Assembly (NCBI RefSeq): GCF_005871185.1
Contig: NZ_SWKN01000006.1
Coordinates: 124,001-188,000 of the forward strand
Direction of reading: 5' to 3'
DNA length: 64,000 bases
Source: Limnobacter alexandrii
Lineage (GTDB): Bacteria; Pseudomonadota; Gammaproteobacteria; Burkholderiales; Burkholderiaceae_B
The notes beneath the pieces are model-generated. The model was given only the letters and a program-made list of their open reading frames with translations, was not told the DNA's origin and made no database searches. The stretch's first letter is position 1. Each line of letters opens with the position of its first letter. The translations under genes and the position numbers were made by a program. Shown here in pieces: positions 30,858 to 41,491 of this stretch.

Positions 30858-31487
30858 TTAGAACGCCACAAAAACCACTCGCCGGTTGTCGCCACTCTCT
30901 GGTTCAGCCAAATTCAACAGCTGTGATTCGCCTTTACCGATGGTGTAAAGGCGACTTGCAGGTACCTTCAGTTGTTTAACCAAAGCAAGTTTTACTGCCT
31001 CCGCCCTTCTCTTGGACAGCTCTAGATTGTAGCTATCTGTGCCCTTTGCATCGGTATGCCCTTCGATTGTGAACTTTTGTCCCTCAAGCGCCGCAGATTG
31101 CATTGCTTTTGATACTTGTATTAAAACCGACCAAGCTTCGGGCTTGATTTGGTCCGAATCAAATTCGAATTCAATCATGTCCAGGCTGGCCTTGGATAAA
31201 TTAACATCAGCCGGCTTTGCAGGAAGGTCCAATCCACGTTCTTCCAGGCTGTCACTGTACTGTGCAAGCTGCTGACGGTCTTCTTCACTTAGAAGCGACA
31301 AATCGAGCGAACGGGTTTTTGTTCGGCCAACAGGCCGAGGGGACAAAGCCTTGATCAATTCGTCAACAGTTGGCTCCTTTCCCGAAAATACGGTGGTGTC
31401 ACTCTCATTACTGTCCGCGATTGCCGGGCGCAGCACCCCTATTGCACCCAAGCCACACAGCATTAAAAGCAGGTATTTCGCAATCAT
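30858..31487 (-). CDS. OmpA-family peptidoglycan-associated protein
   Basis: 209 residues. A signal peptide (about 1-24, ending in AIADS) is followed by a linker and a C-terminal OmpA domain: IEFEFDSDQIKPEAWSVL near residues 104-121 and FTIEGHTDAKGTDSYNLELS near 138-157, with the conserved Asp and Arg for diaminopimelate binding (KRRAEAVK). No beta-barrel is present, so it is a periplasmic wall-binding protein. It is the last gene of the ECF-sigma cluster, 15 bases after the caspase gene. Confidence 0.88.
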   Translation of the reverse strand: MIAKYLLLMLCGLGAIGVLRPAIADSNESDTTVFSGKEPTVDELIKALSPRPVGRTKTRSLDLSLLSEEDRQQLAQYSDSLEERGLDLPAKPADVNLSKASLDMIEFEFDSDQIKPEAWSVLIQVSKAMQSAALEGQKFTIEGHTDAKGTDSYNLELSKRRAEAVKLALVKQLKVPASRLYTIGKGESQLLNLAEPESGDNRRVVFVAF

Positions 31488-31502
31488 GATCTCTCCGTTC
31501 GA

Positions 31503-32324
31503 TTAAAGACAACGGCCCCGGTGGCCTGGAGTGAAGCAAAAATCACCAATGAGGTTGTTACTCTCCCAAGGTGTTTGGGCACCATCGGTGGCCTTCAATA
31601 CATCCACACGAATTCGCTTGAACATTTGTTCCACATGCAAACCAGGCGTTTGAATGTGTTTGCTTAAGGCCTGAGCATAGGGGCTGACGGCTTCTTTTCC
31701 GTCAAAAGCCAACTCGCCAGGCGCGGTGGAATAGGCGATCAGCGTGCCTTGAGGTGCTGTTTGGGCAGCCAAACCGCCAGGCTTGTCGAACAGTGAACGC
31801 TTTTTCGTTCCGCCAATTCGTCCCAATCCGGGGTCTATGTTTTTCGGTATGGGATACGCCCGGCATGCATCCACCATCAAGATATTGACCCCGGTTTTGT
31901 AGCTGCCCAGGCGTTGCAAGAGGTCGTCTACCGAAACCGATCTGGGAGATATTTCATGTTCGTAATTGATGACTGCATCCACGGGAATGAGGTAATTTTT
32001 TCCGTGATATTGCAGGCCATGGCCTGCGAAGAAAAACACACGTACATCTGCATCGCGACCCATGCGCCAGAAGTCCTCCATACCCACGATCATTTCACGC
32101 TGGTTCTTGTTCTCCAGCAACTTGACCTGATAGCCCAGGCTTTGCAGCGAACTGGCAATTAACCGTGCATCTTGCAAGGCATTGCGCAAGGGTGCGGACG
32201 CATACTGCGAATTGCCAATCACCAGTGCAACCTTACGCTCGGAGGCCTCTGCATTGCCGTTGACAGCAAACCAAACCAACACGGCCAGGCAACACTTGAA
32301 TACCACGCCTTTCACGCTGTTCAT
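31503..32324 (-). CDS. Secreted caspase-like (peptidase C14) protein
   Basis: 273 residues. A signal peptide at about 1-28 (CCLAVLVWFAVNGNAEAS) sends it to the periplasm. The caspase fold starts with VALVIGNSQYASAPLRNALQDA. The catalytic pair is complete: His102 in FFFAGHGLQ and Cys154 in ILMVDACRAYP. The chain is essentially one p20-like domain plus a short tail. Its substrate and the need for activation are unknown. It lies in the operon of the ECF sigma factor and anti-sigma factor, which suggests a role in envelope sensing or in processing of cluster proteins (inference). Confidence 0.88.
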   Translation of the reverse strand: MNSVKGVVFKCCLAVLVWFAVNGNAEASERKVALVIGNSQYASAPLRNALQDARLIASSLQSLGYQVKLLENKNQREMIVGMEDFWRMGRDADVRVFFFAGHGLQYHGKNYLIPVDAVINYEHEISPRSVSVDDLLQRLGSYKTGVNILMVDACRAYPIPKNIDPGLGRIGGTKKRSLFDKPGGLAAQTAPQGTLIAYSTAPGELAFDGKEAVSPYAQALSKHIQTPGLHVEQMFKRIRVDVLKATDGAQTPWESNNLIGDFCFTPGHRGRCL

Positions 32325-32341
32325 GGATATCGTCCTGCCTG

Positions 32342-33001
32342 TTAATGTGGGTACTGAATCGACGAAACCGACTCAATTACATCCAGTGAATTCAACAGGT
32401 CTGCGTTGCTTTCCAGCATGCGGCGAGGAACCTTCACGGTGTACTCGCCCATGTGCGTCGGGCCCGCTACAATCGAGATATTGTTTTGTATCAAGACAAG
32501 CCGAATTTGCTGCTCGCCAATATTCGGCTTGAAACCGACCTGGAAGTATGCGTAGTCACGGTCTTCGGAAAAAACACCGCAACTTCTAAAATCGGAATAC
32601 GGTGCAGACATTTCCGGCTGGACCATGTACCCCATCAGAACTGCGGTACCTGCCGCAAAAAGTACCAACGATGTTGCAAATGAGCCAACACGCACGGGTG
32701 TGGAAAACCACGCCATGAAACGTGCATAGGTCTCCTTGAAAAATGACAGCGAATCAGACTTGGCCAAGTGCTCTTGAATATCAGCCCACCCAAGGTCTGC
32801 GGGTGCCTGCAATTGCGCGTTTTCCTCTTGAAGTACAACTTCCCTCATCAAGGCTTGGTGCCAGCGCAGCTGTTCATGCAACTCGGGGTTCGCACCCAAG
32901 GTAAAGTGCATCCAGCGTTGCTGCTCGGTATCCAACGTGCCGCTTACAAAAAAAGGCAATTGCTCGGCAAAGCGCCTTAAATCCAGTTCATTGACGGTCA
33001 T
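32342..33001 (-). CDS. Membrane-bound anti-sigma factor
   Basis: 219 residues. The N-terminal part (about 1-95) resembles an anti-sigma domain (LPFFVSGTLDTEQQRWMHFT) but lacks the zinc-binding His/Cys set. One membrane helix follows (about residues 103-124, FATSLVLFAAGTAVLMGYMV), and the last ~90 residues are periplasmic (GVFSEDRDYAYFQVGFKPNI, GEYTVKVPRRM). The gene overlaps the ECF sigma gene by four bases, the usual arrangement of a sigma/anti-sigma pair. Assignment by topology and context. Confidence 0.75.
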   Translation of the reverse strand: MTVNELDLRRFAEQLPFFVSGTLDTEQQRWMHFTLGANPELHEQLRWHQALMREVVLQEENAQLQAPADLGWADIQEHLAKSDSLSFFKETYARFMAWFSTPVRVGSFATSLVLFAAGTAVLMGYMVQPEMSAPYSDFRSCGVFSEDRDYAYFQVGFKPNIGEQQIRLVLIQNNISIVAGPTHMGEYTVKVPRRMLESNADLLNSLDVIESVSSIQYPH

Positions 33002-33564
33002 AGCAAACCTTTCAGTTTATTGACGCAGTTTTTCAGCTTCTGCTTGGCATGAAAAAGGCGTGTTTTGATCGTGCCCTCTGGCACCCCGGTGACTTCCGAA
33101 GCTTGCGCCACGGTCAGCTGGTCGAAATAGACCAGTGTCAACGACTCACGGTGCTGAATTCCCAGTTTGTCCATGCACAACCTGACGCCCTCGCCAAGGT
33201 CTTGCCGCATGCGCTCCTGCTCGCAGTCATCACAACTACCCAACAATGACTGCCAGTCGCCCAGGTCTTCGAGATAGTCCGCTTGATGGCGACGTTCCTT
33301 GTCCAAGCGGTCCAGCAATTTGTTGTGAGCAATACCCAACAACCAAACCTCGGGCTTGGAACGCCCACCAAAGGTACCGGCTGAACGCCACACTGCAAGC
33401 ATGGTGTCCACCACCACCTCCTTGGCCATTTCATCGCAATGCAAATGGTTTTTCACAAAAGAAAAAATGCGTCGGGAAAACGCGGTGTACAGGCTCTGAA
33501 AAGCATCCTGGTCTTGCAAAGCAATTTTCTGAATCAAGTCAGCAATGGATTCGCGGGTGGTCAT
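32998..33564 (-). CDS. ECF-family RNA polymerase sigma factor
   Basis: 188 residues. Sigma region 2 spans about residues 20-90 (FQSLYTAFSRRIFSFVKNHL, EVVVDTMLAVWRSA, KPEVWLLGIAHNKLLDRL) and region 4 about 130-185 (RESLTLVYFDQLTVAQASEV, GVPEGTIKTRLFHAKQKL). No region 3, as expected for ECF. Start ATG 33564. A promoter-like sequence upstream (33622-33653) is repeated in front of the repeat-protein gene at 41430, so it probably controls itself and the rest of the cluster. Confidence 0.92.
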   Translation of the reverse strand: MTTRESIADLIQKIALQDQDAFQSLYTAFSRRIFSFVKNHLHCDEMAKEVVVDTMLAVWRSAGTFGGRSKPEVWLLGIAHNKLLDRLDKERRHQADYLEDLGDWQSLLGSCDDCEQERMRQDLGEGVRLCMDKLGIQHRESLTLVYFDQLTVAQASEVTGVPEGTIKTRLFHAKQKLKNCVNKLKGLL

Positions 33565-33621
33565 GGCGCAATCAGCACGAAAAAAATCAGCATGAAAATT
33601 TGTGAATCAATTGAATACAAC

Positions 33622-33653
33622 AGGTGAGTCGGCGCGCAGGCATTTCCGGTTCA
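33622..33653 (-). promoter_or_regulatory. Candidate ECF promoter in front of the sigma gene
   Basis: On the minus strand: TGAACCGG, 12 bases, GCCGACTCACCT. The GAACC -35 core is typical of ECF promoters. The same sequence with the same spacing (TGAACCGG, 12 bases, GCCGACTTACCT) occurs at 41460-41491 before another gene of this cluster. The site lies about 60-90 bases upstream of the sigma start. Confidence 0.7.
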
Positions 33654-33659
33654 ATAAAT

Positions 33660-36599
33660 TTATTGCCCCAGAATTTGCCAGTTGCGCATTTCAGACGTGG
33701 CAATTAGCTGCGGCGTTTGCTGCCCAATGGTTTGGTCGCGCAACTGGGTAACCAAGGGCACCGCTTGATCAAACCAGCTTTGCACGGTCAAGGTGCGCCC
33801 ACTGGCAGTGGTTTGCTGCAGCCCCTCAAGCAACCCATGTGTAAACAGGCCGCGACCTGCTGGCGCATATTCCTGTGAATCCTCATCTTTGGCGGAAGCC
33901 AGCAACATGGGAAACAATGAGGAAACCGAGCGTTTGATCAAGGAGGCCGGGTTCAAACGCCCCTCAATGCCCTGCGCGTGGCAAGTGTCCACAATCAGTA
34001 TTCGACGCCCCGCCGTGTTGCGCAAGGCTTCGAAAAACACCTCCCAGGAAATCAGGCTTTCTCGTTTGGTGCGTGAATTGGGACTCAGATCGTTCAGGCT
34101 TTTCAGGTCGGCCACAGTAACATCGGCGGGCACAAAGTAATAATTTTTGTGCACGTCCTGCACGGCATGGGAAGCTAGAAACATCATCACCGTGTCTTGC
34201 GCGCGGGCTTGAGAAAGAAACTTCAAGGCATCTTCAATATTGTTCTTGGTGGGGCCTTGCTCAGCCTGATCGGCCAGCAAACGAATATTCACCTTGCGAT
34301 AATTGGAACTGCCAAACTGTTGCATGGCCTGCGAAAACTGCACGGCATCACTGGCTGCGAAATCAAGTTGGTGTTCAGCTGACAGGTTTTTAAACCCGCT
34401 AACGCCCACAGCAAATACGTACAGGTTACCTAGATCCCGTTGCTGACGTATAGGGCTGGAATTTTTCTCTGGCAAAGGAATTGTGGTCTGCGCAAGCCCA
34501 AGGGAATGATCAGTCATGGCCTCAACCCGAAGCTCATTGAAACGGTCGCGCAGCACAAGTTGAATTTCACGCTCAAAACCACTTCTGTCTCGCCAACCCA
34601 AACGCCGCTCGGAAGGTGCAGTAACAGGAATCTGATTCACAAATACAATAAAGTCGTTTGGCCTTGGGCCCAGGGTTTCACCCTTGATCCGCAATGTAAG
34701 CGCCCATTCCCCCGAGGCGCGTTGAACCAGTTTTTCAGTGCGAATGCTAACCCGTGGTGGCAACACATTTTGTAAAACAAGGTTGTCGGGCGTGGCACTG
34801 TTTTCCAACAAAGTTTTTTGAACCCGCTCGGGTTTGTACAAGGTTCTCTCGAACTGGGCTGCCAGAAAAAAGTCGGGAGCTTGGTTCATGCCTCTGTTAA
34901 TGTGCCAACCTAGAAATTGATCACCCGCCGGAGAAGACATGTACAAACCATTGGGCTGCCAGGCTATCCAGTCACTGCGGTTAGCATGTTGAAAATAAGC
35001 GAGGTGCTCACGCCCTGTTGCGGTGGAAAACCAGCGAATGGTGCCATCAGACAATGCGGCCACAGCCCATTTTCCATCTTCACTTAAGTTAACTGCCCAT
35101 GCTGAGGCAGACAGTCGAGCGATCCAGTGTTGCTTGCCCTGATGATCGAGGTGCCGCAAAGCCCAGCTAGTGCCCAGCAACAAAGCATTGCCATCTGTAG
35201 ACCAGGCATGGCTTTCAACTCGCTCAAACGCCTCCAGCTGCAAAGCCTGCTGATTCAATGTGGGCTTGTAGCGGTCGGCCAGGTCGAACTGCTGGCCTGG
35301 CACAGTTTGCCGAGGGGGTATCAGCTTCACACCACGTTGAGAGACACTTTTCTTTTTGGTATCCAGTTGCCCATGCGCCACGTCGAACAACATGGGCTCA
35401 AGCAATTCGCCAGCCCCGTTGTCAGCAGTGAACTGAACACGTTGCGCATCATCAGACAACGCAAGAAGCTTCGATGTACCCTCAAAATTCAACACGGATG
35501 AACGGGCTGAATATTCAATTTTCCCGGCCTTGTTCATCACATGCAAAGCGGGCTCGCCAGTCAACAGTACAAGCCAGTCATTCTTCCAGCGCACAATGCC
35601 ATTGATGCTGGAGTGTGCTACTGAATAACTTTGCGCGTCGCTGATTTGAACAGAATTATTTGCCCCATGCGTAACCTGAAAACAGGCTGTTTTCACCAGC
35701 TTTGCTTTCAAGGCCTCGCCGGCAACACACAGCCTGTCTATGGTTTGCTCGGCACGGTGATCGCCCTTCAACCATTCAAGTGAATGAACATTTTTACCCA
35801 AGGTCAGGTGGTTTGCCTTGATTTTCAAATCCACCTGTAAGGTGTCAGAGTTCAACAAATGAACGTCAGCATGCTCGAAATAACCCACAGCAAGCTGGCG
35901 ATTGTTTGGTGAATACCTAACAGTGAGGGGCGTTGCATTTGGATCGGGCTTGACTCGACCCAGCAAGGTGTAATCAGCGCCATACAAACGAACAAATTTA
36001 TCAAGGCTGGCCACCGCAAGTTCACCCTGCTTGTTCATCACAATGTCTCGAATATCGGCCCCGTATTCAGTGTCCTCCAGCAACACCTGTTGAGTACGTA
36101 CATCAACAACCCGTAAACCTGCATTGCCCATTAATCCAATGGCCAAGTAATTCGAAGTACCCAAAAAGCGAAGCGCAGAAACACCTTGCGGCAAATTCTT
36201 GATGCGCCCCAGAAATGCACCGCTTTGCGCATCAATCAAGAATACCGATGCAGTGCGTTCCTTGTCCCAGCCTGTCCAGCCCGCAGCGGCAATTACTGTG
36301 CCATCTACAGACAACGCCAAACCAAACAGCTGCCCTTCATGACCAGCAGAAACAGGCACCCGAAACACTTTGAGTGATTTCAATTCAGGCAACTGCCAAA
36401 CGCGAATGGTTTTGTCGTCGGCTGCGGTGTACAGTAAATCTCGCGACTGATCCACCTCTGCGCGTCGAATCAAGCTGGTGTGCTGCGCAACCTCAATTCG
36501 GGGAAAAGGGTTTGTATCAATTAAACCGGGTTTTGCAAGAGCACTGCCTGCAAAAAACAAGGCAGTCAAAAAAACCCAGGGCAAGGCCAACAATTTCAT
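33660..36599 (-). CDS. Secreted WD40-repeat protein with C-terminal caspase-like domain
   Basis: 979 residues. A signal peptide (about 1-22) is followed by roughly 550 residues of WD40-like beta-propeller repeats (for example DLLYTAADDKTIRVWQLPEL near 54-73, GKWAVAALSDGTIRWFSTAT in the later part). Then comes an Ig-like stretch and, from about residue 735, a caspase-fold domain (YVFAVGVSGFKNL). The catalytic positions are His ~811 in MFLASHAVQ and Cys ~873 in ILIVDTCHAQG. The usual GHG around His is replaced by SHA, so activity is uncertain though both residues remain. ATGA overlap with the preceding gene at 36596-36599. WD40 domains would provide protein docking. Role within the export-like cluster is unknown. 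Confidence 0.85.
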   Translation of the reverse strand: MKLLALPWVFLTALFFAGSALAKPGLIDTNPFPRIEVAQHTSLIRRAEVDQSRDLLYTAADDKTIRVWQLPELKSLKVFRVPVSAGHEGQLFGLALSVDGTVIAAAGWTGWDKERTASVFLIDAQSGAFLGRIKNLPQGVSALRFLGTSNYLAIGLMGNAGLRVVDVRTQQVLLEDTEYGADIRDIVMNKQGELAVASLDKFVRLYGADYTLLGRVKPDPNATPLTVRYSPNNRQLAVGYFEHADVHLLNSDTLQVDLKIKANHLTLGKNVHSLEWLKGDHRAEQTIDRLCVAGEALKAKLVKTACFQVTHGANNSVQISDAQSYSVAHSSINGIVRWKNDWLVLLTGEPALHVMNKAGKIEYSARSSVLNFEGTSKLLALSDDAQRVQFTADNGAGELLEPMLFDVAHGQLDTKKKSVSQRGVKLIPPRQTVPGQQFDLADRYKPTLNQQALQLEAFERVESHAWSTDGNALLLGTSWALRHLDHQGKQHWIARLSASAWAVNLSEDGKWAVAALSDGTIRWFSTATGREHLAYFQHANRSDWIAWQPNGLYMSSPAGDQFLGWHINRGMNQAPDFFLAAQFERTLYKPERVQKTLLENSATPDNLVLQNVLPPRVSIRTEKLVQRASGEWALTLRIKGETLGPRPNDFIVFVNQIPVTAPSERRLGWRDRSGFEREIQLVLRDRFNELRVEAMTDHSLGLAQTTIPLPEKNSSPIRQQRDLGNLYVFAVGVSGFKNLSAEHQLDFAASDAVQFSQAMQQFGSSNYRKVNIRLLADQAEQGPTKNNIEDALKFLSQARAQDTVMMFLASHAVQDVHKNYYFVPADVTVADLKSLNDLSPNSRTKRESLISWEVFFEALRNTAGRRILIVDTCHAQGIEGRLNPASLIKRSVSSLFPMLLASAKDEDSQEYAPAGRGLFTHGLLEGLQQTTASGRTLTVQSWFDQAVPLVTQLRDQTIGQQTPQLIATSEMRNWQILGQ

Positions 36600-37507
36600 T
36601 TGTCGGAATCACTTTGAAAACTGGAAACAATACGCACCACCCCATCGGGCAACTTGACCAGGCCCACGCCTTCATCTGCCTTCGCAATGGCTTGCGAGGA
36701 AGTAGCCATCAATTCCTGATGAAGGTTGGGTGACATGGAAACACCCACCAGAGTATCTGGCTGAACATTCAGTAATTGAAACCCGGCCACCCGTTCAAAC
36801 TCCTCGGCTGGCAGCGCCCTGAACAACAAACCTTCATTGAGTTGTTGATCAACAAGGTAAAACGCTTTTCCTTGCGCTTGCTGAAGTATCAAGTAAACGG
36901 TGGGGTCAGCAAGGGGCTCGGCAGGTGTCTCAATATCGCCTGTATTCAGGGCCAACAGGCTGCTTAAGGAAACTCGCGTTTCAGAATCGATACCGGCATT
37001 TGCGGGTGAAGCAATTGAACTGATTGCGCTGGCTGGTTCGGTTTGCTGGGGCAAGGACGGTGCTGAAAATGATTGCACCGAAAGCATGGGCTGCTGCACA
37101 GGTGCCGACAAAGAAGTTGCCGAGCTTGATGCTGACACGCGAGCGGCCATGGGGGCAGCAACTACAGGCACCGCAGCAACAGCAGGTGCAGCCACTGGCA
37201 CCACCTTGCTGGGCGCAATTCGGGCTGCTGGTGCGGGTGTTGAAGCGCGGGAAGTGCGAGCCGGGGCACGGGGTGCCCGTGTCGGCTGTGGGTTTAGCTC
37301 CCGGATGAATACTGCCTGAGCGCCAGCGGACGAGGCTGTAGTAGGACCAATTTCATTTCCTTTACCAATATGACTTTCTGCTGCTGCAGCCACGTTATTT
37401 CGAACGATCTCACGCAACCGATCCAGTGGTGCAGTTTGAGCATACACGGCACCAACCGCAACAACACATGCAACACCAAAAGCCACCTGTTGATAAATTT
37501 TACTCAT
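36596..37507 (-). CDS. Secreted protein of unknown function, paralogue of the next gene upstream
   Basis: 303 residues. A signal peptide (about 1-23, ending VYAQT) is followed by a low-complexity Ala/Pro/Ser-rich linker (about 50-140) and a C-terminal domain of about 100 residues (VYLILQQAQGKAFYLVDQQL, EGLLFRALPAEEFERVAGFQ). This domain is clearly related to the C-terminus of the protein at 37539-38198 (VFLKFGYAQGSPVYLIDERS, EGLVFFSVPVQEFQRITKM). I know no family for it. Its stop overlaps the WD40-caspase start as ATGA, so the two are co-translated and probably work together. Confidence 0.75.
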   Translation of the reverse strand: MSKIYQQVAFGVACVVAVGAVYAQTAPLDRLREIVRNNVAAAAESHIGKGNEIGPTTASSAGAQAVFIRELNPQPTRAPRAPARTSRASTPAPAARIAPSKVVPVAAPAVAAVPVVAAPMAARVSASSSATSLSAPVQQPMLSVQSFSAPSLPQQTEPASAISSIASPANAGIDSETRVSLSSLLALNTGDIETPAEPLADPTVYLILQQAQGKAFYLVDQQLNEGLLFRALPAEEFERVAGFQLLNVQPDTLVGVSMSPNLHQELMATSSQAIAKADEGVGLVKLPDGVVRIVSSFQSDSDK

Positions 37508-37538
37508 CTGATTCCCGATTAATTAAGTTTGAAGAGAT

Positions 37539-38198
37539 TTATTTCGACTCAAGCGTGGTGACTACTCGGACCCCGCCATCTGATGAATTTTCAAGTCCTG
37601 TTGGCAATTCAATTTGAAACAGTGAGCCAGCAAACGACTGTTTCAACGCAAAATGTAATTCAGGCCGAATCGGCACCTGGGTTAACAAGCCGGGCTCAAG
37701 TTCAGGCAACACCATCTTTGTAATTCGCTGAAACTCTTGGACGGGTACCGAGAAAAAAACAAGTCCCTCGCGGCTGCGTTCATCAATCAGGTAAACCGGG
37801 CTTCCCTGCGCATATCCAAACTTCAGGAACACCATATTTGCCGCTTCCGTGGCTGCGTTTTCCGCGTTACTTGAATTGCTGGAGCCCAGCAAACTGCTCA
37901 GCGAAGGTTGCACCGCGGAACTCGAATTCCCTTTTGCAGCCACCCCGGGCACACCGGCAGGGGGAGGCAAAGCTGTTGGGCTAATTTCCGGAATATCAAA
38001 AGACGAAGGATCGGGCACTGCTCCTTCCCTGCCCGTAGACGGAGAGGGAGGGCCACTTCCCGGCCTGGCATCAATCGTTGACGGAGACACCCTGCCACTG
38101 TGAGGAGGAACAGTCACCGAACCGTTTTGCGCAACCGCCTGGCCGAGAAAGCCTGCACAGTAAATACCCATGCAAACAAAATGTGTAAACCATTTCAT
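37539..38198 (-). CDS. Secreted protein of unknown function, paralogue of 36596-37507
   Basis: 219 residues. A signal peptide (about 1-24, ending AVAQN) is followed by a Pro/Gly/Ser-rich linker and a C-terminal domain of about 95 residues that aligns with that of the following gene: a shared AQG-x3-YLxD, EGL-x-F, EF-R core and a similar C-terminal V-R-V/I-V strand. Function unknown; conserved core and tandem position suggest a heteromeric pair in the periplasm. It follows the CsgG-like gene by 16 bases. Confidence 0.72.
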   Translation of the reverse strand: MKWFTHFVCMGIYCAGFLGQAVAQNGSVTVPPHSGRVSPSTIDARPGSGPPSPSTGREGAVPDPSSFDIPEISPTALPPPAGVPGVAAKGNSSSAVQPSLSSLLGSSNSSNAENAATEAANMVFLKFGYAQGSPVYLIDERSREGLVFFSVPVQEFQRITKMVLPELEPGLLTQVPIRPELHFALKQSFAGSLFQIELPTGLENSSDGGVRVVTTLESK

Positions 38199-38214
38199 GT
38201 TGATTCCGCTTCAA

Positions 38215-39774
38215 TTAATTGTTACCAAGCACGGTCCAGCGCAGTACCTGTACATCGGCCTCATCAGGACCAAATATTGAAAACGCCCGCTGAATCTCTG
38301 CCATGCTGTCAACATGTTGCATGGGCAAAAGCGGTTTTGCTTTTAATGCCGGTGGAAAACGACTGGCCAACTGATTAGGTGACGCCGCACACAACAAAGT
38401 TTCAACACCTGGTCGGTTCAGGGTGATCAAAAAGTTTTTTTCGAGGGTTTGGTCAGGAATGACAATCGCCTTGTTGCCTGCCACGGGTTGCAGGTTCTGA
38501 AACATATTGGGATAAACCTGCGAAATTACACCTGCTGAGTCCTGGTAATAACAGTACACATAGGCACGCCGACTGGTATTGAAAGTCCAGGTTAAATTCT
38601 CGCCAGGGTAGTACACCCTGTCGTCCTTGTTCAGCCGAACGGTCAAGGTCGGCTTGGCTGGTGCTGCCGGTTTTGCAGTGGCTGGCCAGCCAATTTGGGT
38701 CAAATTGCCGGCCTCATCGAACACCACCAGCTTTCTCATGAATTGGGCGTAGGTTTCGAAATTGATTCGCCCCGTTTCAATCAGGTTTTGGTCTGCCTGG
38801 TAAGCCAAAATAGCCTTTTCAAGCGTAGCGCTCGGTTTGCCGTCTAGCTGCCCAGCGAAATAGCCCTGCTTGCTCAAACTGGTTTGAAAAAATCGCACCC
38901 GCTGTTCTGTGGTCATTTTCTCCCACCACGCCAGCATTTGGGCCATGTACTCGGGGTGGCTTGAATCAAGCGCCAAGCACTGCCAATAAGGCAATTGTGC
39001 CCATTTGCCAATCAACTCGATCATGCCCAGGTCAACCAACGACCTTACAGCGGGGCCAACACCCTGAGACACTTCTGCACCCAAGTTGAATTGCACCCCG
39101 GTTTTGTTAATTCGCCCACCAGCATCCGTACCCATACCCGCATTGGCCACTACAATTTCATTGGCGGATGCAATGCCCTGAATCAGCGTGCGGGTTGTAA
39201 AATCGCCCAAGTGCAGGTCCATGCCGAACACACTGGAATTTTTATCCCGGCTTGCACCGAAATCGAACAAAGGTGTTGCCAGCCCGGCACCCTGGCGCTC
39301 ACTGCGAATGTTCTGGTCCATAAAACTGATGGACCCCGATACATAAATTCTGGGCATTTGCAATTGCACATAACCTTTGCTCATGGCCCAATTGGTCATG
39401 CCCTGCACAGAATCCTGAGAAAGCTGGTTCAACTCAAAATCGACAAACCGAAAAGCATTGCTGGTTCTGGACATGGCATGTAAAGCAGTTACAACCATGT
39501 CTTTGGTGCCCACAAACAGGCGCCCCGAGGCATCGGGAATTGCTTTGCTGGTGACCAAGGTGGGCCCGCGCCCTGAATCAGCAAGAAGCTTGTCCATGCA
39601 AGCCAGTGCCTCGTTGAAATTGGACACAGATCGTATGGGCGCAACAACTGGCTTGTTGTAGGTGTATGCTGACTCGTAAAAATCGGCATCATTGCGGGGA
39701 TTGACTGCACATCCCGAGATCGCAATCAGAAGCATGGCACCCAAGCCACTCCATCGCTGTTGAACTTTGTTCAT
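38215..39774 (-). CDS. CsgG/HfaB-like outer-membrane lipoprotein with peptidoglycan-binding and DUF4384-like parts
   Basis: 519 residues. Lipobox AISGC places the acylated cysteine at residue 22. Residues ~40-250 resemble the CsgG/HfaB family (VTALHAMSRTSNAFRFVDFE, IYVSGSISFMDQNI, GVQFNLGAEVSQGVGPAVRS). CsgG forms the outer-membrane pore for curli subunits; HfaB does so for holdfast anchors in Caulobacter. A peptidoglycan-binding-like segment follows (about 285-350; FFQTSLSKQGYFAGQLDGKP, ILAYQADQNL). The last ~140 residues resemble DUF4384 (DDRVYYPGENLTWTFNTSRR, YVYCYYQDSAGVISQVYPN), a domain often found with bacterial caspases. Probably the export channel of the cluster. The three-part architecture is longer than CsgG (about 280). 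Confidence 0.75.
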   Translation of the reverse strand: MNKVQQRWSGLGAMLLIAISGCAVNPRNDADFYESAYTYNKPVVAPIRSVSNFNEALACMDKLLADSGRGPTLVTSKAIPDASGRLFVGTKDMVVTALHAMSRTSNAFRFVDFELNQLSQDSVQGMTNWAMSKGYVQLQMPRIYVSGSISFMDQNIRSERQGAGLATPLFDFGASRDKNSSVFGMDLHLGDFTTRTLIQGIASANEIVVANAGMGTDAGGRINKTGVQFNLGAEVSQGVGPAVRSLVDLGMIELIGKWAQLPYWQCLALDSSHPEYMAQMLAWWEKMTTEQRVRFFQTSLSKQGYFAGQLDGKPSATLEKAILAYQADQNLIETGRINFETYAQFMRKLVVFDEAGNLTQIGWPATAKPAAPAKPTLTVRLNKDDRVYYPGENLTWTFNTSRRAYVYCYYQDSAGVISQVYPNMFQNLQPVAGNKAIVIPDQTLEKNFLITLNRPGVETLLCAASPNQLASRFPPALKAKPLLPMQHVDSMAEIQRAFSIFGPDEADVQVLRWTVLGNN

Positions 39775-39780
39775 TTTTTC

Positions 39781-40104
39781 TCAGTTACACACATTAATTA
39801 CACTGCCTGTTACCACCACCATTTGAGGCGTTTGGCGCGGGCCGTACTTTGGCGCGTCATTCACTGGCGGGCTGGGTTGCCCAACTTGGGTCACGCAACT
39901 TTTTTGCCCAGGTTTGTTGCCACTTTCGGTTCGGGCTATTTGTTGCGCTTGCCCAAATGTGGTCCAGCGTTTGGCCTGAATACTTGTCACCGTAGCTGCA
40001 TCCTTGGGGCTCATTTCCCGCCGGGGTGTGGGGTCTTCCTGTTTGGCTTGCACAGAAAAACTGCATAAAAAAATCAAGGCACTGCACATCAACTTGTTCA
40101 TCAA
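39781..40104 (-). CDS. Small secreted protein, possible fibre component
   Basis: 107 residues. Signal peptide of about 21 residues (CSALIFLCSFSVQAK). The mature part is short and polar, with two cysteines (SCVTQ and the C-terminal NVCN). The last residues MVVVTGSVINVCN resemble the G-x-V-x-N strand found in the repeats of the two following secreted proteins. No family recognised. It lies seven bases before the CsgG-like gene, as substrate genes often do. Confidence 0.65.
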   Translation of the reverse strand: MMNKLMCSALIFLCSFSVQAKQEDPTPRREMSPKDAATVTSIQAKRWTTFGQAQQIARTESGNKPGQKSCVTQVGQPSPPVNDAPKYGPRQTPQMVVVTGSVINVCN

Positions 40105-40161
40105 ACCGCTCCTGAAAAAACAAATGCCCCGTGGTTAAATACCCAGGGGCCACATGAAAAA

Positions 40162-40464
40162 TCAAAGGCTGCGGTTGGAAGATATGTTTTGCATGGCCTT
40201 GGATTTGCTGCCAATTGCAATATTGGTTACCGCCCCCTCAATCTCAGTGACCTGCTTGTTGTCACCACCGATAGAAACGGTACCCACATTCGACGACAGG
40301 TTTTGCTCGGCCTCGGTTTCAGAACCAATTGCAATATTGGTAACCGCGCCATCAACACGCGTTTGCTGATCATTCTTACCTTTGATTGTGATTTCAGCAG
40401 ATGCGGTACCTGCAATTGCAAAAGACATCAACAAAGCAACTGCACAAGAAACAGACTTCAACAT
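40162..40464 (-). CDS. Small secreted protein with two amyloid-like repeats
   Basis: 100 residues. A signal peptide (about 1-23, ending TASAE) is followed by two copies of a repeat about 37 residues apart, each containing GAVTNIAIGS and then AEQNLSSN or AMQNISSN. The alternating hydrophobic pattern with conserved Gly, Asn and Gln suits a beta-solenoid or curli-like strand-turn-strand fold. The GAV-x-N core is shared with the larger repeat protein upstream. I infer a minor fibre subunit or nucleator; no family known to me. Confidence 0.7.
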   Translation of the reverse strand: MLKSVSCAVALLMSFAIAGTASAEITIKGKNDQQTRVDGAVTNIAIGSETEAEQNLSSNVGTVSIGGDNKQVTEIEGAVTNIAIGSKSKAMQNISSNRSL

Positions 40465-40530
40465 AATTTTCTCCAGAATTTAAAAACGTTCGTCTTTGTA
40501 AAACCTGAAAGCGGGCCGAACGCATGCCCA

Positions 40531-41430
40531 CTAATTTCCAATTTCAACCGTTGAGCTTTGGCCATATGCAGCAACATTCACCACGCCACCACCCACAAAT
40601 GCCGACTGCGCATTGCCCCCCACACTGCCGGGCCTGGAAGCCACCAACACAGATGCTTTTGCAGCCAATGCGGCCAGGTTCACAATGCCACCAGCAACCA
40701 CTGCGCTTTGTGAATTTGCACCATTTACCGAGCCGCCCACTGAAGCCACACGCACATCTGCCAATGCAGCTGCACCTGCCAAATTCACAATGGCACCACG
40801 CATTACAACCACTTGCGTATTTGCGCCTTTGACGTTCTTGCCAACCGAAGCCAACTGGGTATCTGCTTTCGCAACCAGTGCTGCACCATTGACAACCGCA
40901 CCTTTTACATCGGCTATTTGCAGGTTTGATCCTTTTGAATTGCCACCCACACTGGCAATTTGAACCGTCGATTTCGCGGCCAGCGCAGCTGCATTCACCA
41001 CAGCCCCACTTACATTTGCAATTTGCGTATTGCTTCCACTGACATCGCCTGCCACACTCGCAACTTGCACACTGGCCTTGGCCACCAGTGCCGAGCCATT
41101 CACTAGCGCACCCTTAAATGAACTCAATTGAATATTGCTACCGCGCACCTTGTGAGCGGACGAGAGAAAAACCGAAGAATGACTTCCCGGGCCTATGGCA
41201 CCATTGATTACTACGCCAGTGACATATGAAGACTGTGTAGAGTTGCCTTGCTGTAATCCCGCTCCGCTCGACATGCTGGAAACTGCCTCGCCACCCATGA
41301 CAGCCACGTTGGACGCAACACCGCGGATGGAAGTGCGCTGCTGCACCTCAGCAGTTGCCAAAGCAGGCAGGCTTGACAGCAAGGCCACCAGTGCCAGCCA
41401 CTTGCATGTTTCCGGGGTATAAACGGCCAT
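40531..41430 (-). CDS. Secreted 35-residue-repeat protein, candidate amyloid-like fibre subunit
   Basis: 299 residues from ATG 41430, chosen because GAAGG lies 7-12 bases upstream; a TTG at 41451 would add seven residues. A signal peptide (about 1-27, ending LATAE) is followed by six to seven tandem repeats with a period of exactly 35 residues (last one 34). Consensus: G-A-V-V-N-x-A-A-L-x-A-K-x-x-V-Q-x-A-S-V-G-G, then G-x-N-x-Q. The invariant Asn and the N-x-Q pair stack at the same position in every repeat. No cysteines in the repeat part. This is the pattern of curlin-type amyloid subunits, though the motif is not the curlin repeat itself. First gene of the long transcript, behind a candidate ECF promoter. 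Confidence 0.78.
   Translation of the reverse strand: MAVYTPETCKWLALVALLSSLPALATAEVQQRTSIRGVASNVAVMGGEAVSSMSSGAGLQQGNSTQSSYVTGVVINGAIGPGSHSSVFLSSAHKVRGSNIQLSSFKGALVNGSALVAKASVQVASVAGDVSGSNTQIANVSGAVVNAAALAAKSTVQIASVGGNSKGSNLQIADVKGAVVNGAALVAKADTQLASVGKNVKGANTQVVVMRGAIVNLAGAAALADVRVASVGGSVNGANSQSAVVAGGIVNLAALAAKASVLVASRPGSVGGNAQSAFVGGGVVNVAAYGQSSTVEIGN
40534..41217 (-). repeat. Tandem coding repeat with 105-base period
   Basis: Seven repeat starts (the Gly before the A/V-V-N motif) fall at residue intervals 35, 35, 35, 35, 35 and 34. At DNA level the copies have diverged and share codons rather than long identical runs, so it is an old repeat held by selection on the protein, not a recent expansion. 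Confidence 0.8.
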
Positions 41431-41459
41431 GTTGTTTACCTTCAAAGTCAATCAGTGAG

Positions 41460-41491
41460 AGGTAAGTCGGCGTCATTCAAAAACCGGTTCA
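41460..41491 (-). promoter_or_regulatory. Candidate ECF promoter in front of the repeat-protein operon
   Basis: On the minus strand: TGAACCGG, 12 bases, GCCGACTTACCT, identical in layout to 33622-33653. It lies 30-60 bases upstream of the start at 41430, at a suitable distance for a short leader. Confidence 0.7.

Follow-up and report, generated by a model that had tools for sequence, protein, structure and literature searches.

What could caspase-like proteases be doing next to a gene for a CsgG-like outer-membrane lipoprotein, in a gene block that carries its own extracytoplasmic function (ECF) sigma factor? The question is raised by eleven genes in a 64,000-nucleotide stretch of the Limnobacter alexandrii genome (contig NZ_SWKN01000006.1, positions 124,001 to 188,000; hereafter the window, to which all plain coordinates refer). 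On the reading we favor, to which we give a probability of roughly 55%, the block would specify a CsgG-type machine of the outer membrane that exports and anchors small β-repeat proteins and whose dedicated proteases are the exported caspases. The open reading frames all lie on the minus strand, running from 41451 down to 30858, and are separated by 66, 57, 6, 16, 31, -4, 95, -4, 17 and 15 nt. A first-pass annotation of the window had delineated this cluster correctly except in counting ten genes, where its own list and the open reading frames both give eleven; its end coordinate of 41491 takes in a promoter candidate upstream of the first gene. A loose export test, based on a hydrophobic 12-mer near the N-terminus, picks out nine of the eleven proteins, the exceptions being the ECF factor and the putative anti-sigma factor.

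The central component of the proposed machine is the 519-residue CsgG-like lipoprotein (38215-39774), in which a CsgG-fold region (residues ~27-267) is followed by a PG_binding_1 domain (290-344) and a DUF4384 domain (387-467). The last of these had been noted in the first-pass annotation, which overlooked the PG_binding_1 domain and left the fold itself to structure prediction; the predicted model indeed displays a CsgG fold. The Pfam CsgG model (PF03783) does not match the protein, nor does it appear among the families listed for 57 members of set A2 of its relatives, and alignment of profiles with E. coli CsgG by hhalign is weak (probability 51). A distant homolog from genome G903 does score above the cut-off of the Pfam model. 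Comparison of the predicted model with CsgG structures gives a higher Z-score for the membrane-bound form than for the pre-pore form, with a large root-mean-square deviation, and the alternation of strand hydropathy in the monomer model is only partial. The protein might alternatively be an anchor and not an exporter, linking the wall to a surface layer or polysaccharide together with OmpA and the repeat proteins, in the manner of HfaB. The PG_binding_1 and OmpA domains are in keeping with this, as are a weak match to the HfaB model (16.6 bits against a cut-off of 300) and the description of HfaABD as an anchor in the available part of its source (PMC6707917). However, no polysaccharide gene was recognized among the eleven with Pfam or NCBIfam, and the higher Z-score for membrane-bound CsgG, albeit at a large deviation, points the other way, leaving a pure anchor distinctly unlikely. 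Separately, the genome encodes a second CsgG protein, recognized by Pfam and far from the block (G000:C1:1094554-1095153).

The candidate cargo is encoded at the head of the block. The first gene (40531-41451) specifies an exported repeat protein of 306 residues with a period of 35 residues; a TTG start is listed for it, with the true start likely being the ATG at 41430, and single-sequence searches match it in 13 of 84 loci, its own included. The second (40162-40464) encodes an exported protein of 100 residues comprising two 38-residue repeats. In the corresponding family (REP), glutamine, asparagine, alanine and glycine positions recur at a 38-residue spacing across 26 aligned sequences, and the predicted model is β-rich (mean predicted local-distance difference test score 77.8), with a fold that we read as solenoid-like. 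The third (39781-40104) encodes a small exported protein of 107 residues with a cysteine pair, whose family (CYS) an iterated profile detected in 76 of 116 loci. The two repeat proteins may be regarded as candidate fiber subunits on the basis of predicted structure and repeat pattern. Their description as amyloid-like in the first-pass annotation stands to the extent that they are β-rich, internally repeated, exported and encoded beside the CsgG-like gene; the comparisons with curlins, CsgA/CsgB and the PDB, given below, lent it nothing. Two further exported proteins, of 219 (37539-38198) and 303 residues (36596-37507), had been proposed to be paralogs, and do match each other at an E-value of 4.7e-14. 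They are otherwise orphans: among 349 genomes of the order, matches to the pair occur only in the genome of the window.

Further downstream lie the proteases. The smaller caspase (31503-32324; 273 residues, exported by the appearance of its N-terminus) matches Peptidase_C14 at 135 bits against a cut-off of 21.4 and contains the motifs of the His-Cys dyad. The larger (33660-36599; 979 residues) is an exported protein with WD40 repeats recognized by Pfam and a divergent caspase half, which likewise retains the His and Cys motifs of the dyad; this half has no Pfam C14 match, scores below the cut-off of the NCBIfam model NF047832 (1.8e-8; 34 bits against 140) and was found by an iterated caspase profile. 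The last gene of the block (30858-31487) encodes an exported OmpA-family protein of 209 residues (Pfam OmpA, 74 bits). Bacterial caspases are often tied to cell death or defense, and the complex could accordingly be imagined as an envelope device that senses damage and releases caspases to kill the cell or attack rivals. A match of the small caspase to the PADLOC 'caspase' model (34.7 bits) and the patchy, mobile-island-like presence of the block would suit such a device. However, the caspases appear to be exported and not cytoplasmic, and a PADLOC scan covering ten of the eleven proteins gave no further matches beyond those of ZorB/MotB models to the OmpA domain; we regard a death or defense role as very improbable.

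The association of caspases with the CsgG-like gene recurs in other genomes. Matches to the CsgG-like protein were found in 8 of 369 genomes of the class and 20 of 398 of the phylum (both at E 1e-10), and in 17 of 349 of the order (E 1e-20), the window's own genome being counted in each; in the class of G615, 10 of 48 genomes have one. Of the 39 genomes matched in the class, phylum and order samples, 36 were checked for caspases (G298, G506 and G845, with partial matches, were left out, as was G051 from the family sample described below). These 36 contain 117 Pfam C14 domains genome-wide, and in 12 of them the CsgG-like gene has such a domain no more than 10 kb away, versus 0.61 expected under random placing (P 1.6e-13). 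When each genus is represented by a single genome, the count is 10 of 28 versus 0.49 expected (P 1.1e-11), the caspase row being kept for g161 and its sister G437, whose CsgG-like gene sits at a contig end, being dropped. The count of 12 includes neither the divergent WD40-caspases that neighbor the gene in G615 and G962 nor G1114, where the caspases are about 12 kb away; G1114 also has a separate Pfam CsgG match (G1114:C10:39980-41789) about 1 kb from a caspase gene. The enrichment bears directly on the possibility that the export module and the caspase/sigma module are unrelated and came together by chance in an island. Most export-module loci have no caspase found, as this would predict. 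The enrichment nevertheless largely refutes it already, and the shared promoter pair before both halves and the lack of the entire block at the other loci of the genus, both described below, leave it scarcely credible.

Examination of individual neighborhoods shows that caspase, CsgG-like and repeat-protein genes recur together in other genera, as the survey envisaged in the first-pass annotation would have it. Locus L155 (from G615) holds a WD40-caspase, a caspase, two repeat proteins, a Cys protein, the CsgG-like protein and OmpA, which is nearly the set of the window, and L146 holds the same types without the WD40-caspase. Loci L182-L184 combine ECF factor, OmpA, CsgG-like protein and caspase, and in two of them, L182 and L183, the Cys protein was detected as well; L193 (from G962) has anti-sigma, ECF factor, WD40-caspase, OmpA and the CsgG-like gene. 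For counting, a set of 111 loci was used in which the CsgG-like protein has at least 380 residues, so that shorter rows such as L193 are left out; the neighborhood set also leaves out L001 and L002 and the duplicates L083 (contig of L005), L078 and L082 (contigs of L152 and L151), and its counts are not independent of kinship. A caspase was found in 14 of these loci, every one of which also has an OmpA gene (the CsgG-like gene being present by construction), whereas an ECF gene accompanies six.

The sigma factor gene (32998-33564; 188 residues) is well supported by Pfam, with above-cut-off matches to Sigma70_r2 (48 bits) and Sigma70_r4_2 (45 bits). It is overlapped by 4 nt by the gene for a putative membrane anti-sigma factor (32342-33001; 219 residues), so named for its position, a hydrophobic segment seen by eye and a weak NCBIfam match (18.6 bits against a cut-off of 225). 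ECF-dependent promoters typically have a GAAC-type -35 box. A duplicated promoter candidate of ECF type, overlooked by the first-pass annotation, conforms to TGAACCGG-N11-CGCCGACT-Y-ACCT and lies on the minus strand before the first gene (41460-41491; TGAACCGG-N11-CGCCGACTTACCT) and before the ECF gene (33622-33653; TGAACCGG-N11-CGCCGACTCACCT). The two have both words and their spacing in common; when the region before the ECF gene was shuffled 500 times and its paired words were compared with the region before the first gene, none of the 500 shuffles did as well. The 26-base core has two perfect copies in the 3.49-Mb genome, both in the block, and two further places at two mismatches, as against 21 matches at two or fewer mismatches for the reversed control pattern. 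A sigma-70-like promoter was not found at the head of the block. The simplest reading of the sequence is that the sigma factor would control the block and itself, and the paired candidate sites are signs of the ECF control proposed in the first-pass annotation.

This arrangement invites a different view of the proteases, under which they would serve in signaling by cutting the membrane anti-sigma factor to free the ECF factor, the fiber machine being the output, as with Csx29 cutting Csx30. The caspase, ECF and anti-sigma genes are adjacent in the window; six of the seven ECF loci among the 111 also have a caspase, and the uncounted L193, with its short CsgG match, has all three. Sigma factors have been noted in metacaspase operons (PMC3501461, in the part available), and since type III-E CRISPR (PMC10028731, available part) provides a precedent for the release of an ECF factor by a caspase-like protease, anti-sigma cutting retains a genuine chance. 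However, no ECF gene was found near eight of the 14 caspase loci, and exported caspases would reach only the periplasmic part of an anti-sigma factor. With OmpA present in all 14 and ECF in only six, the counts are easier to reconcile with a substrate in the envelope machine or among its cargo than with a target in the sigma circuit, and we consider the signaling role unlikely.

Several observations weigh against assigning the caspases and repeat proteins to a dedicated fiber machine. First, no caspase was found within ~10 kb in 97 of the 111 loci; even when the count is restricted to the 73 loci flanked by 8 kb or more on each side, one was found in 10 and none in 63. Caspases are therefore not needed for the export module as such. 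Second, a histidine kinase or response regulator lies nearby in 62 of the 111 loci, and the commonest form of the locus, mostly from Comamonadaceae, lacks a caspase and is equipped with a two-component system. Third, the duplicated promoter was not recognized in seven other ECF loci. Fourth, the REP family was detected by profile in only five of the 14 caspase loci, several others holding different repeat proteins by eye, and the lysine plus arginine content of the repeat proteins does not separate caspase loci from the rest. Finally, neither a sequence link to curlins nor a significant fold match was found: the curlin models of Pfam match neither the 36 repeat-type proteins scanned (26 plus 10) nor the 306-residue protein, hhalign to CsgA/CsgB provides no profile link (probability 0.7), and a PDB fold search with the repeat-protein model returned nothing significant, the FapC entries at the top of the list having E-values of 0.088 and 0.9. 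Overall, the interpretation offered in the first-pass annotation is partly supported, namely in its CsgG fold, signs of ECF control, β-rich exported repeats and recurrence; the envelope stress that it invokes is an assumption.

A scan of named genomes yielded 206 confirmed relatives of the CsgG-like protein, of which the best 80 were used, and hence counts over them lean toward relatives near the query. The tree includes 76 of them: record titles assign 55 to Comamonadaceae, a kinase or regulator accompanies 55, and a caspase was found in none. Their usual order is repeat, Cys, CsgG-like and Sel1 proteins beside a divergently encoded response regulator and histidine kinase, the domain assignments having been checked for a single representative of each. 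In the 111-locus set, too, a caspase was found in none of the 46 loci with a kinase and none of the 60 with a regulator. A quick tree of the 111 CsgG-like proteins places the window as a lone branch inside a set of 79 rows (Shimodaira-Hasegawa-like approximate likelihood-ratio support 99), no other row of which has a caspase found, and the caspase label requires 12 changes on the tree. The window may either keep an older caspase state lost by its relatives or have gained caspases anew.

Within the genus the block is an accessory unit. In the family sample, the CsgG-like gene occurs in two of 200 genomes, one being that of the window and the other G051, a member of its family, and in none of nine other genomes of the genus. 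The right-hand flanking gene, used as an anchor, is present in 14 of 16 genomes of the genus, the two without it not being included for the block. Setting the window's own locus aside, 13 such loci remain, and a search at E 1e-5 detected none of the eleven proteins there; in 12 of them the flanking genes are directly adjacent, with ~150 nt or less between them, and the last has other genes in between. Consequently, the block behaves as a single unit that a locus either has or lacks entirely.

In the mechanism that we infer for fiber formation, export and caspase targeting, the ECF factor, restrained by the adjacent anti-sigma factor, would turn on the whole block along with its own gene. Fastened to the cell wall through a domain of its own as well as through OmpA, the CsgG-like ring would pass or anchor the repeat proteins, which could then polymerize or coat the cell surface. 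The targets of the caspases would lie in the periplasm, either among the repeat proteins or at the base of this machine, and their action would mature subunits or clear misdirected ones. In a stronger version, put forward tentatively and in our view doubtful, the caspases would be working parts of an amyloid-type fiber machine, licensing or destroying its subunits at the CsgG-type channel, and the sigma factor would be devoted to that machine.

Among known systems, curli (csgBAC-csgDEFG of E. coli) likewise combine a CsgG-fold outer-membrane lipoprotein with small exported β-repeat proteins. However, none of the eleven proteins has a CsgE, CsgF or CsgC Pfam match, the repeat proteins are not curlins by sequence, the lipoprotein adds PG_binding_1 and DUF4384, and the block adds caspases, OmpA and an ECF factor. 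The Caulobacter holdfast anchor HfaABD also joins a CsgG-like lipoprotein to small polymerizing surface proteins (PMC6707917, available part), but the block lacks HfaA and HfaD matches and again adds caspases and OmpA. Type III-E CRISPR (Csx29-Csx30-CASP-sigma) resembles it in bringing a caspase-like protease, a sigma inhibitor and an ECF factor into one locus (PMC10028731, available part); there, however, the system is RNA-guided, whereas here exported caspases accompany an envelope machine. The 2012 survey of metacaspase operons by Asplund-Samuelsson (PMC3501461), in its available part, records OmpA in 14 of 217 operons and sigma-70 genes in others, leaves the function of 70 of the 217 unknown, and differs from the block, in which OmpA and sigma factor are tied to a CsgG-like machine; CsgG does not occur in its main text. 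The 2012 survey of curli by Dueholm (PMC3521004), in its available part, places only two systems in Betaproteobacteria, and its main text does not mention HfaB, Comamonadaceae or Acidovorax. Among the matches listed in the open-licence literature, no title or abstract describes a system of CsgG with caspase, metacaspase, DUF4384 or OmpA, in line with the earlier annotation, which knew of none. The block is best read as a new, curli- or holdfast-like CsgG-type export variant with dedicated exported caspases.

If so, the cluster would connect the separate caspase, OmpA and sigma observations of the metacaspase survey to one concrete envelope machine with an apparently private promoter, and that link makes the substrates of bacterial caspases directly testable. 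Recurrence of the pairing in distantly related bacteria may show what some of these proteases do; were they indeed parts of a fiber machine, some bacterial caspases would build or police the cell surface and not serve cell death. More generally, the CsgG-like proteins suggest a large exporter family, largely missed by the Pfam CsgG model and accompanied by new candidate fiber subunits, with members in environmental bacteria and one Haemophilus parainfluenzae record.

A few further features of related loci deserve mention. Two genomes of the genus have other genes next to ychF: in G066 (L100:1317-8950), phage-integrase and resolvase genes lie between ychF and a patatin-like gene, and the far end of the stretch repeats 34 codons from the beginning of ychF, so that ychF looks like an integration site; in G205 (L112:5329-11778), a different set occupies that gap and separates ychF from the next gene, including an IclR regulator, a short-chain dehydrogenase and a flavin monooxygenase by Pfam, with others assigned by eye. 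The repeat proteins of loci of the caspase-free type (L020, L045, L047 and others of Comamonadaceae type) often carry NNxCxxC near the C-terminus by eye, a motif absent from the two repeat proteins of the window. The Haemophilus parainfluenzae locus (L048:8678-13162), with no caspase found, encodes two repeat proteins, Cys, CsgG-like, Sel1-type and pentapeptide-repeat proteins. In Azospirillum lipoferum (L004:10319-24765), CsgG-like and OmpA genes are followed, by record annotation, by genes for FHA, PP2C phosphatase, trypsin-like and Ser/Thr kinase proteins. Lastly, in 14 loci the CsgG-like gene neighbors one for a small protein, apparently exported, in which a 'CWQ.G' motif is followed by a further cysteine (e.g., L153:11476-11796, L155:10143-10481 and L182:6488-6820); the L182 member has no Pfam match, a profile of the family gave no match in the window, and this protein is possibly another part of the export machine.

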